From: Chromatiaceae bacterium
GTDB lineage: Bacteria; Pseudomonadota; Gammaproteobacteria; Chromatiales; Chromatiaceae
NCBI GenBank assembly: GCA_007693535.1
Contig: REDK01000075.1
Location: 1-40,822, forward strand
Reading direction: 5' to 3'
Length of the DNA: 40,822 nucleotides
Part shown: positions 12,658-17,854 of the stretch, in pieces
Numbering within the stretch: position 1 is the first letter of the stretch
Layout of the letters: each line of letters starts with the position of its first letter
Notes under the pieces: model-generated
What the model was told of the DNA's origin: nothing
The model's database searches: none
The model's input: the letters and a program-made list of their open reading frames with translations, nothing else
Translations under genes and position numbers: made by a program

Positions 12658-12807
12658 TTCAGTCTGCGCGAAAACCGCGAGCGGGCCGAGCGCGAGGCGA
12701 TTCAACGGACCCTGTGTTTCGGCGACAATACCCGGTCGCGGGCTGTCAAGCTGTTCGAGGTGGCCCGCCCGACCCTGTACAACCTGATGCGCAAGTTCGA
12801 TCTGTTC
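12658..12807 (+). pseudogene. 3' fragment of a PrsR-type (PEP-CTERM system) response regulator
   Basis: Fifty codons in one frame read as the C-terminal end of a PrsR-like sigma-54-dependent regulator. An SLRENRERAEREAIQ helix is followed by a Fis-type helix-turn-helix ending VARPTLYNLMRKFDL. This resembles the family ending (LREARE-RAEREAI ... SRPTLYDLL). The receiver and AAA+ domains, about 400 residues, are absent: 5' of the fragment the frame reaches a stop at 12604. The 3' end has lost its stop and the frame runs on into prsT. PrsR normally regulates exosortase-linked exopolysaccharide genes and lies next to prsT, which follows here 150 bases on. The identification is from motif memory. 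Confidence 0.65.
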
Positions 12808-12957
12808 CTAATGATGGCCGGCATGTTGCCGGCTGCCGCGTCCGCCCCGGCTCCGGCGGCGAGCCGGCCGACCTGCCGGGCCGGTGTGGCCGGCCGCGGC
12901 CAGACTGCTGCTGGGTTCCCGGCGCGGTCCCGAACCACGGAATCAACCGGAGTTTTC

Positions 12958-15774
12958 ATGTACTGCAAATCGACCGCTTTCCGGCGACGCTTGCCGCTGC
13001 TGCCGCTGCTCACGGCGATGACAATGCTGCTGGCGCCGCCCCACGCCCTGGCGCAGGCCGATGCAGGGCGCCTGCAACAGGCGCTGAGCGCCTTCGATGA
13101 TGGCGATTTCCGCACTGCCGAGGCCCAGCTCAAGGACCTGCTGCAGCGCGATCCGGGGTTGGCCGAGGCACGCCTGTTGTTAGGGCGGACCTATCTGCAG
13201 CTGGGGGATGGCGCCGCTGCCGAAAAGGAACTCCAGCGCGCCGCCGAACTTGGGGTGGCGCCGAATCGGTGGCGGCTCGACCTCGCGGAGGCACTGCTGC
13301 AGCAGAGGCGCTTCGAGGACGCCGTGACATCGCTCGAGGAGCAGGCCGCGGCGCTGGCCAATGAGCCAGCTGCGGTGCGAGCCGCGGCGCTAGGTCTGCG
13401 TGGGCGTGCCCTGCTCGGGATGGAACAGATCGACGAGGCGCGCATGGCCTTTACCGAGGCCAGGCGGCTCAACCCCGACGACCGGCTTGCCGGCCTGGGG
13501 CTCGCGCAGGTGGCGTTGCTCGCCAACGACCTGGCTGCCGCCGCTGCCACCCTCGACGGCCTGCTCGCACGGTTCCCGGACGAGAGTAACCTGCGCCTGC
13601 TGCGGGCGGAGGTGTTTCGCGGTGTCAACGATCCCGAGGCGGCACTGGAACAGTACGATCAGATCCTCGCCCGCGAGCGGGATAATCTGCGCGCCCTGCT
13701 CGGGCGGGCCACTGTGCGGGTCAGCCTGCAGCGGTTTGCCGATGCGCGCGCGGACCTGGAACGGATCGAACGCCTGCGACCGGATGTCGTGGTGGTGCAT
13801 TATCTGCGCGGGGTTATGGCCTTCTATGAGCGCGACTGGGAGACCGCGGCCGGGCATCTGGAGGAGGTGCTGTCGGTCCAGCCCACCCATGTCCAGAGCA
13901 TGTTGTTGATGGGCGTGGTCAGCTATGCACGTAACCAGTTGCAGTTGGCCGAGGAATACCTCTCGCGCATCCTGCGGGCAATGCCCGACAACATCCAGGC
14001 TGCGAAGGTGCTGGCGGCGACGCGCCTGAAGCTGCGCGAGCCAGCGCGCGCGGTGCAGGTGCTGGAACCCTTCAGCGAGACCGGCGACCCGCAGATCATG
14101 GCCTTGCTCGGCAGCGCCTACATGCTGGCCGGGGACCCGGAGCGCGGCCAGCAGTGGCTCAGTCAGGCGGTCGAGACGACACCGGACGCGGCCGCTCTGC
14201 GCACCCAGTTGGCCCTGACCCTGATTGCCGGTGGGCGCATGGGTGAGGCGATCGCCGAACTCGAATCGGCGGTGGACCTGGGCCAGGACGTGCTGCAGGC
14301 CGATGTGCTGCTGGTGCTCGCGCTGTTGCGCGAAGGCAAGGCGGATGAGGCCATCGCAGCCAGCACCGCGCTGGAGACCCGCCGCCCGAACAGCCCGATC
14401 CCGGCCAATCTCACCGGGCTGGCACTGCTGGCACAGGGGCGCCTGGAGCCGGCCCGCGAGCGCTTTGAGCGCGCCCTCGAACTAGATCCGCGCTTCACCA
14501 CCGCGTTGATCAATCTGGCACGGGTGGACGTGGCTGGCAGCGACCTGGAGGCTGCCGAGGCGCGCTACCGGCGCGTGCTGGATCAGGAGGGTGGCAACCT
14601 CGCTGCCCTGCTGGGCATGGCGGCGCTGGCCGAGCAGCGCGATGATCCCGCGGCCTTAGAGTCCTGGCTGACCCGGGCGCAGGATGCCAATCCAGGGGCC
14701 ACCCAGCCCGGTCTCCTACTGGCGCGGTTCCTCATCGAACGCGGCGATTACGTCAAGGCGCTGGGGGTAGCCCGCGCACATGCTGCGCGCTTCCCGCAGA
14801 ATCCGGAGGTTCTGGAAATGCTCGGGCGCGCCGCGACCCTGACTGGCGACACCGCCAACGCCACCCGCACCTTTGCGCAAGTGGAGGAGCTGCGTCCGAA
14901 CGATCCGCGGGTGTCCTATCTGTTGGGTGGTGCCCACTGGAAGGCGGAGGACTATCGCGCCGCGGCGACCGCTTTCCGCCGTGCGATCGAACTGCGGCCT
15001 GACTACCTGGAGGCACGCCTTGCCCTGGCATCGGTGCTGCTGGCCGCCGAGGATTACAGTGCCGCGGTCGCGATCGCCCGCGCCCTGCAGGCGGACTATC
15101 CGGACAACCAGCTCGGTCACCGGCTGGAGGGCCGCATCCTGCTCGCCGCCCGGGAGCCGCGCGGGGCGGTGGCAGCCCTGGAGCAGGCCCTGGCGATGGC
15201 GCCGGCCGGTGACACCGTCCGGGAATTGGCGGATGCCCACCACCGGGCCGGCGACGATGCCCGCGCCATCGAATTGCTGCGCGACTGGACCGCTCAGCAG
15301 CCGGCCGACCTCGACAGCCTGGCCTTCCTTGCCTTGCTGTTGCAGGGCGAAGGGCGCGACGAGGAGGCACTGCCGATCTACCTCGATCTGTACGAACAGG
15401 GGACCGAGAACGTGGTGATTCTGAACAATCTTGCCTGGATTCTGCACCAGCGTGGCGACCCGCAGGCGCTCGAGATCGCCGCCCATGCCTATGAACAGGC
15501 CCCCAACCAGCCCGAGATTGCCGATACCTATGGCTGGATCCTGTTCAACAGCGGACGGCGCGCCGAGGGGCTTAACATCTTGCAGCAGGCCCATCTCGCC
15601 TATCCCAGCCAGACCGAGATCACTTACCACGTCGCCGTTGCCCTGCAGTCCGTCGGTCGCGGCGATCAGGCGGCGCGGCTGCTGCAGCGGCTGCTACGGG
15701 ATCATCCCGGCGCCCCCGAGGCACCGCGTGCGCGGGCGCTGCTCGAGCGCCTGCGCGGCGCGGCGGGCGACTGA
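12958..15774 (+). CDS. prsT: PrsT-like TPR-repeat protein of the PEP-CTERM/exosortase system
   Basis: The 938-residue product has a signal peptide (residues 1-32, ending ALAQA) and then about 25 tetratricopeptide repeats to the C-terminus. The first repeats, with AEAQLKDLLQRDPGLAEARLLLG and YLQLGDGAAAEKELQRAAELG, match the opening of PrsT, a TPR protein coded beside PrsK/PrsR in exosortase-linked exopolysaccharide loci. PrsT proteins are often lipoproteins; no lipobox cysteine is seen here, so this one should be soluble periplasmic. The start at 12958 has GGAG six bases before it. The frame is open further upstream only because it runs in from the prsR remnant. The gene looks intact and is followed by a clear terminator, so it is probably still expressed. 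A general TPR secretion or assembly protein is the alternative. Confidence 0.8.
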   Translation: MYCKSTAFRRRLPLLPLLTAMTMLLAPPHALAQADAGRLQQALSAFDDGDFRTAEAQLKDLLQRDPGLAEARLLLGRTYLQLGDGAAAEKELQRAAELGVAPNRWRLDLAEALLQQRRFEDAVTSLEEQAAALANEPAAVRAAALGLRGRALLGMEQIDEARMAFTEARRLNPDDRLAGLGLAQVALLANDLAAAAATLDGLLARFPDESNLRLLRAEVFRGVNDPEAALEQYDQILARERDNLRALLGRATVRVSLQRFADARADLERIERLRPDVVVVHYLRGVMAFYERDWETAAGHLEEVLSVQPTHVQSMLLMGVVSYARNQLQLAEEYLSRILRAMPDNIQAAKVLAATRLKLREPARAVQVLEPFSETGDPQIMALLGSAYMLAGDPERGQQWLSQAVETTPDAAALRTQLALTLIAGGRMGEAIAELESAVDLGQDVLQADVLLVLALLREGKADEAIAASTALETRRPNSPIPANLTGLALLAQGRLEPARERFERALELDPRFTTALINLARVDVAGSDLEAAEARYRRVLDQEGGNLAALLGMAALAEQRDDPAALESWLTRAQDANPGATQPGLLLARFLIERGDYVKALGVARAHAARFPQNPEVLEMLGRAATLTGDTANATRTFAQVEELRPNDPRVSYLLGGAHWKAEDYRAAATAFRRAIELRPDYLEARLALASVLLAAEDYSAAVAIARALQADYPDNQLGHRLEGRILLAAREPRGAVAALEQALAMAPAGDTVRELADAHHRAGDDARAIELLRDWTAQQPADLDSLAFLALLLQGEGRDEEALPIYLDLYEQGTENVVILNNLAWILHQRGDPQALEIAAHAYEQAPNQPEIADTYGWILFNSGRRAEGLNILQQAHLAYPSQTEITYHVAVALQSVGRGDQAARLLQRLLRDHPGAPEAPRARALLERLRGAAGD

Positions 15775-16129: not shown

Positions 16130-17854
16130 ATGACTGCCCAATGCGAAATCACTGCCAAGCGCACCAGCGGTGCCCCCATCGGGGTCTTCGAGCGCTATCT
16201 GACCCTCTGGGTGTTCGCCTGCATCCTGGCTGGCATCGCCCTCGGCCACCTGGTACCACCGGTGTTCGAGGCCACCGCGGCCCTGGAGGTGGCGCAGATC
16301 AACCTGCCAGTGGCGGTGCTGATCTGGTTGATGATCATCCCGATGCTGTTGAAGGTCGATCTGACCGCGCTGTCCGGGGTCCGGCAGCATTGGCGCGGGG
16401 CGGCGGTGACCCTGTTCGTCAACTGGGCGGTCAAACCGTTCTCGATGGCCCTGCTGGCCTGGCTCTTCGTCGAATGGCTCTTCCGCCCCTACCTGCCGGC
16501 GGAGCAGATCGACTACTACGTCGCCGGCATGATCATTCTGGGCGCCGCGCCCTGTACCGCGATGGTCTTCGTCTGGAGCAATCTGTCTCGGGGCGAGCCC
16601 AACTTCACCCTGACCCAGGTGGCGCTGAACGATGTGATCATGATCTTCGCCTTCGGCCCTATCGTCGGTCTGTTGCTGGGCCTGACCGCGATCGTCGTAC
16701 CCTGGGCGACCCTGTTCTTGTCGGTGCTGCTCTATATCATCGTGCCGCTGGCCATCGCCACCCTCTGGCGGGCGCTGCTGTTGCGCGGCGATCCCGGCGG
16801 CGGCTCCCTCGCCCGTGTACTGGCCGCCCTGCATCCAATCTCATTGCTGGCGCTGCTCGCGACCCTGGTGCTGCTGTTCGGCTTCCAGGGCGAGCAGATT
16901 ACCAATCAGCCGGGGGTCATCGGGCTGCTGGCGGTGCCCCTGCTGATCCAGACCTTTCTGATCTTCATCCTGGCCTACCTGCTCAACCGCTGGGTGCGCT
17001 CGCCGCACGCGATTGCCGGTCCTTCGGCGCTGATCGGCACCAGCAATTTCTTCGAGCTGGCGGTGGCCACCGCCATCGCCCTGTTCGGTTTCGAGTCTGG
17101 CGCCGCGCTTGCGACCGTGGTTGGGGTCCTGATCGAGGTGCCGGTGATGTTGCTGCTGGTGCGCATCGTGCTCCGGACCCAGGGCTGGTACGAACGGCGT
17201 GCCGGCATACCGGTCGCAACCGGCGGTGTGCCCGCGTTGGCGGCCAGGTCGGCGTCCGCTGTGCTAACGGTCGACGCCCGGGTCGGGCCGGCCCGCGTTG
17301 CCATCCTGACTGCCCCGGTTGCCGGGCGGATACTGGCCTGCGTGGTGCGTCCTGGCGATGCCGTATCAGCGGGCCAGGAGCTGCTGCGGATTGACCCGCC
17401 GGCGGCCATCGGGGCGGCGGCTGACCCGGCACCGGAGGCCGGGGTGGGGGTGCGTGCCCCCTGGTCAGGCCGGGTCTGGCGTGTGCATCCGGTGGCCGAA
17501 GGTGTGGAGGTGCCGGCGGGGGCGCCGCTGCTGGAGCTGTTCAGCGGACTGGTGCTGCAGCTTGTGCTCGGCGAGACCCATGCCCTGGCCCTAGCCCCGG
17601 GACAACAAGTACAGGCCCGGCTGGCGGCTGCCGGCGCGCCTGCACTGGCCTTGACCGTCACCCGTGCCTGGCCGGAACTGGACCCTGAGCAGGGTACCCG
17701 CCGGTTCGAGGTCGACCTGCCCGCCGAGCTGGATCTCGCCGTCGGTATGCACGCGCAGGTCGAGGTGCCGCTAGCAGCGCCGGCGACAGCGTTGCCGACC
17801 TGGCCAATGCCCGCCAGCGAACCCGGTGCCGCGGTTGCCCCTTGTGCAAGCTGA
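16130..17854 (+). CDS. Acr3-type arsenite efflux permease fused to a membrane-fusion-protein-like C-terminal domain
   Basis: The 574-residue product combines two parts. Residues 1-355 are an Acr3 (bile/arsenite/riboflavin transporter superfamily) permease with about ten membrane helices, including LGAAPCTAMVFVWS with the conserved arsenite-site Cys142 and SNFFELAVA with the conserved Glu309. Acr3 exports arsenite using the proton gradient. Residues about 388-550 are a soluble extension: two lipoyl-like halves, TAPVAGRILACVVRPGD (394-410) and RAPWSGRVWRVHPVAEG (442-458), then a beta-barrel-like stretch. This is the arrangement of HlyD/CusB-type adaptor proteins without the hairpin. The start at 16130 has GGAG six bases upstream. 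No stop, restart or frame change separates the parts. No arsR or arsC lies nearby. With ten helices both ends should face the cytoplasm, unlike normal adaptors. Confidence 0.88.
   Translation: MTAQCEITAKRTSGAPIGVFERYLTLWVFACILAGIALGHLVPPVFEATAALEVAQINLPVAVLIWLMIIPMLLKVDLTALSGVRQHWRGAAVTLFVNWAVKPFSMALLAWLFVEWLFRPYLPAEQIDYYVAGMIILGAAPCTAMVFVWSNLSRGEPNFTLTQVALNDVIMIFAFGPIVGLLLGLTAIVVPWATLFLSVLLYIIVPLAIATLWRALLLRGDPGGGSLARVLAALHPISLLALLATLVLLFGFQGEQITNQPGVIGLLAVPLLIQTFLIFILAYLLNRWVRSPHAIAGPSALIGTSNFFELAVATAIALFGFESGAALATVVGVLIEVPVMLLLVRIVLRTQGWYERRAGIPVATGGVPALAARSASAVLTVDARVGPARVAILTAPVAGRILACVVRPGDAVSAGQELLRIDPPAAIGAAADPAPEAGVGVRAPWSGRVWRVHPVAEGVEVPAGAPLLELFSGLVLQLVLGETHALALAPGQQVQARLAAAGAPALALTVTRAWPELDPEQGTRRFEVDLPAELDLAVGMHAQVEVPLAAPATALPTWPMPASEPGAAVAPCAS

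Follow-up and report, generated by a model that had tools for sequence, protein, structure and literature searches.

The window considered here, the whole 40,822-nucleotide stretch of DNA from a Chromatiaceae bacterium, contains a gene in which a permease of the Acr3 family runs on into a domain of the kind found in the periplasmic adaptors of efflux pumps. The questions raised by this locus are whether the chain is genuine, from where its C-terminal module (CT) derives, on which side of the membrane the module lies and what it could do there.

Architecture of the fusion gene

The gene (16130–17854, plus strand) is a single open frame coding for a protein of 574 residues; the window genome (G000) has no second Acr3 match. 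The permease core, residues 1–356 (16130..17197, +), scores 361.8 bits against TIGR00832 acr3 (cut-off 282.8) over residues 18–346 and also matches SBF. Ten helices are given for Acr3 in PMC3317726 and PMC9671657, both citing Aaltonen and Silow 2008, and both papers place a conserved cysteine in the fourth span. These family features, together with a glutamate in helix 9 and two broken helices, are all present: Cys142 (codon 16553..16555, +) and Glu309 (codon 17054..17056, +) are invariant across 30 aligned Acr3 rows, and a full-length structure model from 30 sequences (pLDDT 74.9) reads as ten transmembrane helices followed by the CT, with helices 4 and 9 broken at these two residues. The lipoyl part of this model is of low confidence because the CT is covered by four rows only. 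A phmmer search at E 0.01 identified no PDB relative of Acr3.

A linker (residues 357–375; 17198..17254, +), of low pLDDT and without a transmembrane peak in the window protein, leads into the CT (residues 376–548; 17255..17773, +), which profiles, alignment and fold characterize as an adaptor-type lipoyl plus beta-barrel module without an alpha-hairpin. Lipoyl half 1 (390–422; 17297..17395, +) is delimited by AlphaFold2 strands and the alignment, lipoyl half 2 (439–471; 17444..17542, +) by AlphaFold2 strands and a Pfam HlyD_3 match starting at residue 441, and the beta-barrel part (474–548; 17549..17773, +) by the alignment and AlphaFold2; A-P-x-x-G-R motifs occur at residues 395–400 and 443–448. 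The chain closes with a low-confidence tail (549–574 plus the stop codon; 17774..17854, +), with pLDDT below 50 for residues 550–574. The GC content at third codon positions is 0.885 in the permease part and 0.766 in the CT (window 17198–17851).

HlyD_3 scores 49.8 bits (cut-off 22.2; best stretch 441–538), and HlyD_D23 stays below its cut-off of 30, with 24.3 bits for the complete chain and 29.6 for the C-terminal part. The curated adaptor model TIGR01730 RND_mfp scores 42.3 bits, short of its cut-off of 94.9, so that the CT is best described as a partial adaptor. An AlphaFold2 model of the CT from 17 sequences is all-beta with a mean pLDDT of 82.2; over its residues 21–190, 15 of the 17 ten-residue blocks exceed 85 and no helix of block length occurs. 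A Foldseek comparison of this model with the PDB returned BesA chains at ranks 1–7 (first E 1.7e-11), followed among the best 50 matches listed by chains of ZneB, TMexC, MacA, MexA, AcrA and CusB. The CT thus has, by profiles and fold, the lipoyl (barrel-sandwich) and beta-barrel domains of an adaptor but not the alpha-hairpin. This element spans about 63 residues in the stand-alone adaptors of G162 and G174 (L138/L139); in all 15 fused rows a short loop or linker takes its place. The hairpin is not strictly required, as BesA also does without it.

Judged from its sequence, the chain is an intact Acr3 permease with an adaptor-derived module on its C-terminus. The preliminary description had proposed as much: its single unbroken frame is upheld by the one open frame and by TIGR00832 and HlyD_3 scores above their cut-offs, its complete core with Cys142 and Glu309 by the alignment and a sequence check, and its two lipoyl-like halves and beta-barrel by profiles, AlphaFold2 and Foldseek. 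An assembly or frame artefact is a practically negligible explanation: although the window genome is a draft of 186 contigs, the architecture search suggested as a check recovered the same fusion in G006 and also in G171 (2 contigs) and G177 (1 contig). Separate translation of the CT from an internal start was considered and rejected, since no start with a ribosome-binding-like site is common to the four Acr3-CT genes (an ATG with GGAGG in G006, an ATG with GGAG in G171, none in the window or G177). A promoter scan found no promoter-like site.

Distribution and origin of the C-terminal module

A whole-protein search of 112 relatives gave a full-length match in the window genome and G006 only. 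In six further genomes of the same genus the CT part was matched elsewhere, in frames of 620–674 residues consisting of ArsJ, an MFS arsenic permease, followed by the CT. The CT on ArsJ is 43–51% identical to that on Acr3. The three ArsJ-CT proteins scanned first score 575.8–582.6 bits (ArsJ cut-off 400). Of 16 genomes, 15 contain ArsJ matches, 17 in total, and every one exceeds this 400-bit cut-off. The fusion itself thus stands, but the earlier framing around a single permease missed the same CT on ArsJ, and the module is shared by two arsenic exporters.

A CT-profile search of 210 family genomes at E 1e-12 matched 23 of them: 14 with fusions, six with adaptors (G022, G030, G061, G129, G162 and G174), and G044, G235 and G242 (L145). 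The fusion genomes, which fall in 3 of 61 genera, comprise four with Acr3-CT (G000, G006, G171 and G177) and ten with ArsJ-CT (G001, G002, G003, G004, G005 with two copies, G007, G207, G208, G210 and G215). The G235 match (L140) is, by reading, a GAF-type protein, and that in G044 (L143, about 1507–1704) is a lone CT fragment in a 107-residue frame, 62% identical over 66 residues to the ArsJ CT of L117. Out of a set of 80 loci, 26 unfused ones were read, of which 25 end 341–377 residues after the match start; L054 was out of frame and was dropped. No further fusion appeared in a class sample of 369, where the window and five proteins at 55.6–71.5 bits in frames read as ordinary adaptors were matched, or in a phylum sample of 398, where the window was the sole match. 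Spread of the CT on plasmids was rejected, since neither of two CT queries matched any of 72,556 plasmid records at E 1e-8.

A tree of 28 CT and adaptor rows, rooted on 11 other adaptors and excluding L140, L143, L145 and the shortened CT carried by the second ArsJ of G001 (L148), places the four Acr3-CT rows in one clade (95/91) and the 11 ArsJ-CT rows in another (96/98). The two unite at 100/99 apart from the adaptors, and the fused CTs and the hairpin-bearing adaptors of G162 and G174 form a set of 17 (100/99). The homology of the CT with RND-type periplasmic adaptors is near certain, and sequence, fold and tree mark them as its family of origin. The G174 adaptor and its RND permease lie together with arsD and arsA, and the G162 stretch holds an ArsR-like gene and an ArsP-type permease, arsD and arsA not being seen there. 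On our reading, the module began as an adaptor in an arsenic-linked cluster; after losing signal and hairpin it was joined to one of the two permeases, be it Acr3 or ArsJ, and then handed on to the other. The G174 cluster (L165, 678–12907), which also contains FmdE, TauE, CDF, DsbB-like, DUF4405 and rhodanese genes, is possibly an arsenic-linked RND pump; the similar adaptor–RND pair of G162, beside the ArsR-like and ArsP-type genes, lies at L164, 7830–12022.

Neighbouring genes were called with our own script and clustered, families being scanned mostly on one representative. The window fusion gene stands alone without an ars neighbour and with a DUF805 protein downstream on the other strand, in agreement with the earlier remark that no ars regulator or reductase is adjacent; in this it is unique among the four Acr3-CT genes. 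An ArsR-like gene lies directly upstream in G006, arsR-like, arsD and arsA genes are neighbours in G171, and arsD and arsA in G177. The further suggestion that the substrate may not be arsenite is weakened: the Cys/Glu core is intact and ars genes lie near the other three genes, and arsenite is still the likely substrate. At the 12 ArsJ-CT loci the neighbours include a GAPDH cluster (10), ArsR (8), an ArsP-type permease (10), an ArsE-like thioredoxin (9), PstS (11) and Acr3 (7); the GAPDH count rests on cluster membership, one protein having been scanned. The only ArsJ of the window genome lacks the CT and lies beside GAPDH and an ArsR-type gene.

Three further features were observed around these loci. 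A large TPR protein directly upstream of the window fusion gene (12760–15774, +) matches PrsT (XrtA/PEP-CTERM) with 684.8 bits (cut-off 312.2). Downstream of acr3-CT in G006 (L111, 10314–11477), DsbB and DUF4405 are fused in one protein, whereas L157 and L165 encode them as separate neighbours. At the start of the ArsJ frame of G208 (L133), the part that lies upstream of ArsJ has the look of a tandem repeat (SPFKLLSLFPFKLH-like), and by eye the N-termini of other ArsJ proteins resemble it.

Carrier permeases, loss and constraint

In all 14 fusion genomes the CT is carried by Acr3 or by ArsJ, never by both. The four Acr3-CT genomes contain ArsJ without the CT (open frames of 417–452). Of the ArsJ-CT genomes, five (G001, G005, G207, G208 and G210) have an Acr3 above the family cut-off, always without the CT, and the other five contain Acr3 fragments, weak matches or none. 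The G006 ArsJ, 90.8% identical to a G001 ArsJ, ends in a short CT-like piece (tblastn E 8e-5, with a gap), suggesting that in this one genome the CT was lost from ArsJ where Acr3 keeps it. The converse is suggested by one clear case: the CT-less Acr3 of G208 ends in the linker of the fused Acr3 proteins (16 residues, 75%, E 0.008) and lies inside their clade in the Acr3 tree (100/100 for six, 100/98 for the inner five). The G005 Acr3 is also in this clade without a CT, its position inside being unsupported (88/52). Taken alone, the Acr3 tree would also allow two gains of the CT. Chromatiaceae and Chromatiales records are placed beside members of the family in this tree, a mere hint at its affiliation. 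With few independent events, in related and mostly draft genomes, the one-carrier-type pattern is suggestive rather than proven.

Two internal deletions were seen among these genes. The unfused Acr3 of G005 (L112, 8368–9240) has one that removes Cys142 and is followed by the start of an open reading frame whose N-terminus is hydrophobic and which runs off the contig. In G001 the CT of the second ArsJ (L115, 3792–5306; also L148) is shortened by an in-frame deletion, the other ArsJ having a whole CT.

The CT appears to be kept by selection, but more loosely than the permease part: over 11 pairs, dN/dS (NG86, without a significance test) is 0.127–0.524 for the CT, below 1 in every pair, and 0.043–0.178 for the permease part, so that the constraint on the CT is 1.9 to 4.4 times weaker. 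These values bear on a serious, if unlikely, rival explanation, in which the CT is a tolerated appendage that arose by chance fusion to an adaptor gene, was later recombined between permeases and has no function beyond folding. The weaker constraint, the repeated losses, the lone fragment in G044 and the restriction of the fusion to one family within the samples searched would fit such an appendage, whereas dN/dS below 1 throughout, 27 invariant columns in the alignment of 17 CT and adaptor rows and the occurrence on two permease families argue against it.

Membrane side, proposed role and known systems

Acr3 permeases are generally described as having both ends in the cytoplasm. Counts of membrane-adjacent lysine and arginine, one side versus the other, are 18/2 in the window protein, 18/1 in G006, 18/1 in G171 and 20/3 in G177. 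A crude hydropathy scan gives an eleventh peak at 463–481 in the window protein and at 366–384 in G177, but an eleventh helix was rejected since the positions differ, the former falling in CT strands and the latter in the linker. No signal-like segment was detected in the linker by hydropathy. For ArsJ, hydropathy averaged over 17 frames gives 13 peaks, and we infer a 12-helix MFS permease with its C-terminus inside. Ten modelled helices and the charge bias thus place the CT quite probably in the cytoplasm, as the preliminary description had expected of a ten-helix protein.

The same prediction makes a built-in periplasmic adaptor unlikely. In this improbable arrangement, the CT would lie in the periplasm and pass arsenite to an outer-membrane channel; its descent from a periplasmic adaptor family in the tree would suit this role, and hairpin-less BesA, its fold match, is part of a tripartite pump (PMC3807786). 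Against it stand the count of ten helices, which leaves both termini on the positively charged side, the extra peak within the CT strands and the reading of the 13 ArsJ peaks as 12 helices with the C-terminus inside. The extra helix and built-in adaptor put forward earlier as an alternative are therefore not favoured, there being no credible eleventh helix, no hairpin and no signal-like segment in the linker.

A cytoplasmic CT could instead act in cis as a regulatory domain that gates its own permease on sensing either a metalloid, through Cys404 (codon 17339..17341, +), or a signal from a protein, in the manner proposed for LacS, a sugar permease with a IIA-type domain. The predicted location and the invariance of Cys404 in 17 of 17 aligned CT and adaptor rows are in keeping with this. 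However, two of these rows are the nearest stand-alone adaptors, so the cysteine is not tied to the fusion and was rejected as an arsenic-specific site; a single cysteine is moreover a poor As(III) site, and a cis role accords less well with the presence of one CT type per genome and the decay of the CT on the second permease. Such regulation is accordingly considered unlikely.

The best explanation, with a probability of about 0.4, is that the CT is a cytoplasmic oligomerizing or docking (scaffold) module for arsenic export. We favour a module of this kind because, according to a review (PMC4446572), the lipoyl domain of adaptors stabilizes the complex by touching the transporter or by associating with itself. 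The lipoyl and barrel faces, which adaptors use for such contacts, would keep arsenic permeases together as an oligomer, recruit partners from the cytosol, or both. Export of arsenite by Acr3, and of arsenate or 1-arseno-3-phosphoglycerate by ArsJ, would then take place near the site of production. The loose constraint on the CT, lost or cut in the G006 ArsJ, the G208 Acr3 and the second G001 ArsJ and left as a fragment in G044, speaks against this role. No shared cytosolic partner was found, and a general ArsA dock was rejected, the best ArsA match in the window genome scoring 33.4 bits (cut-off 650).

Because each genome has one carrier type, with decay on the other permease in some, the CT may possibly act in trans for arsenic export as a whole and not just gate the permease that carries it. 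This extension of the scaffold reading is doubtful; five ArsJ-CT genomes lack an Acr3 above the cut-off, so no second permease would be served there. Equally speculative is the fuller picture of a periplasmic adaptor turned into a cytoplasmic trans-acting hub for the unrelated Acr3 and ArsJ, with one carrier type per cell, coupling arsenite and arsenate export. Action of the CT in the cytoplasm would give an adaptor fold a function beyond tripartite pumps; action in trans would make a single assembly of Acr3 and ArsJ, a proposition open to direct test. The presence of the CT on either of two unrelated arsenic pumps in related bacteria may hint at one shared helper part.

The preliminary description knew of no adaptor-type Acr3 fusion, and a literature search with most subscription journals outside its reach likewise found no description of an adaptor-type domain built into Acr3 or ArsJ. 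Nor did it turn up an account of a single module that passed from one permease to another, unrelated one within a shared detoxification pathway. Like LacS-type permeases with a C-terminal IIA domain, the fusions combine a secondary permease with a predicted cytoplasmic beta-rich tail, but IIA is phosphorylated, whereas the CT matches PTS_EIIA_1 with 11.6 bits, below the cut-off of 27.2. Fused domains on arsenic permeases have precedents, as Acr3–ArsC and AqpS–ArsC fusions are described in PMC6205960. The 498-residue Acr3–ArsC protein of Mycobacterium tuberculosis (PMC6205960) likewise joins an Acr3 permease to a further soluble protein in one chain; its partner is an arsenate reductase, whereas the CT is adaptor-type, with no known catalytic relatives among its matches. 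The pairing of ArsJ with an associated GAPDH, for which PMC6205960 and PMC9601151 cite Chen et al. (2016), is echoed by the GAPDH homologue at 10 of the 12 ArsJ-CT loci; unlike standard ArsJ, which NF033734 models over 392 positions without a CT, the ArsJ of ten related genomes carries one. The CT is related to RND-type adaptors (TIGR01730; MexA, MacA, ZneB and CusB) by sequence, fold and tree, but differs from them in having no signal-like segment, no hairpin and a score under the TIGR01730 cut-off. Its best fold match, BesA of Borrelia burgdorferi (PDB 4KKS–4KKU; PMC3807786), shares the lipoyl and beta-barrel domains without a hairpin; BesA, however, stands alone in the periplasm and retains a membrane-proximal domain, whereas the CT is fused to its permease, ends after the barrel and is predicted to lie in the cytoplasm.
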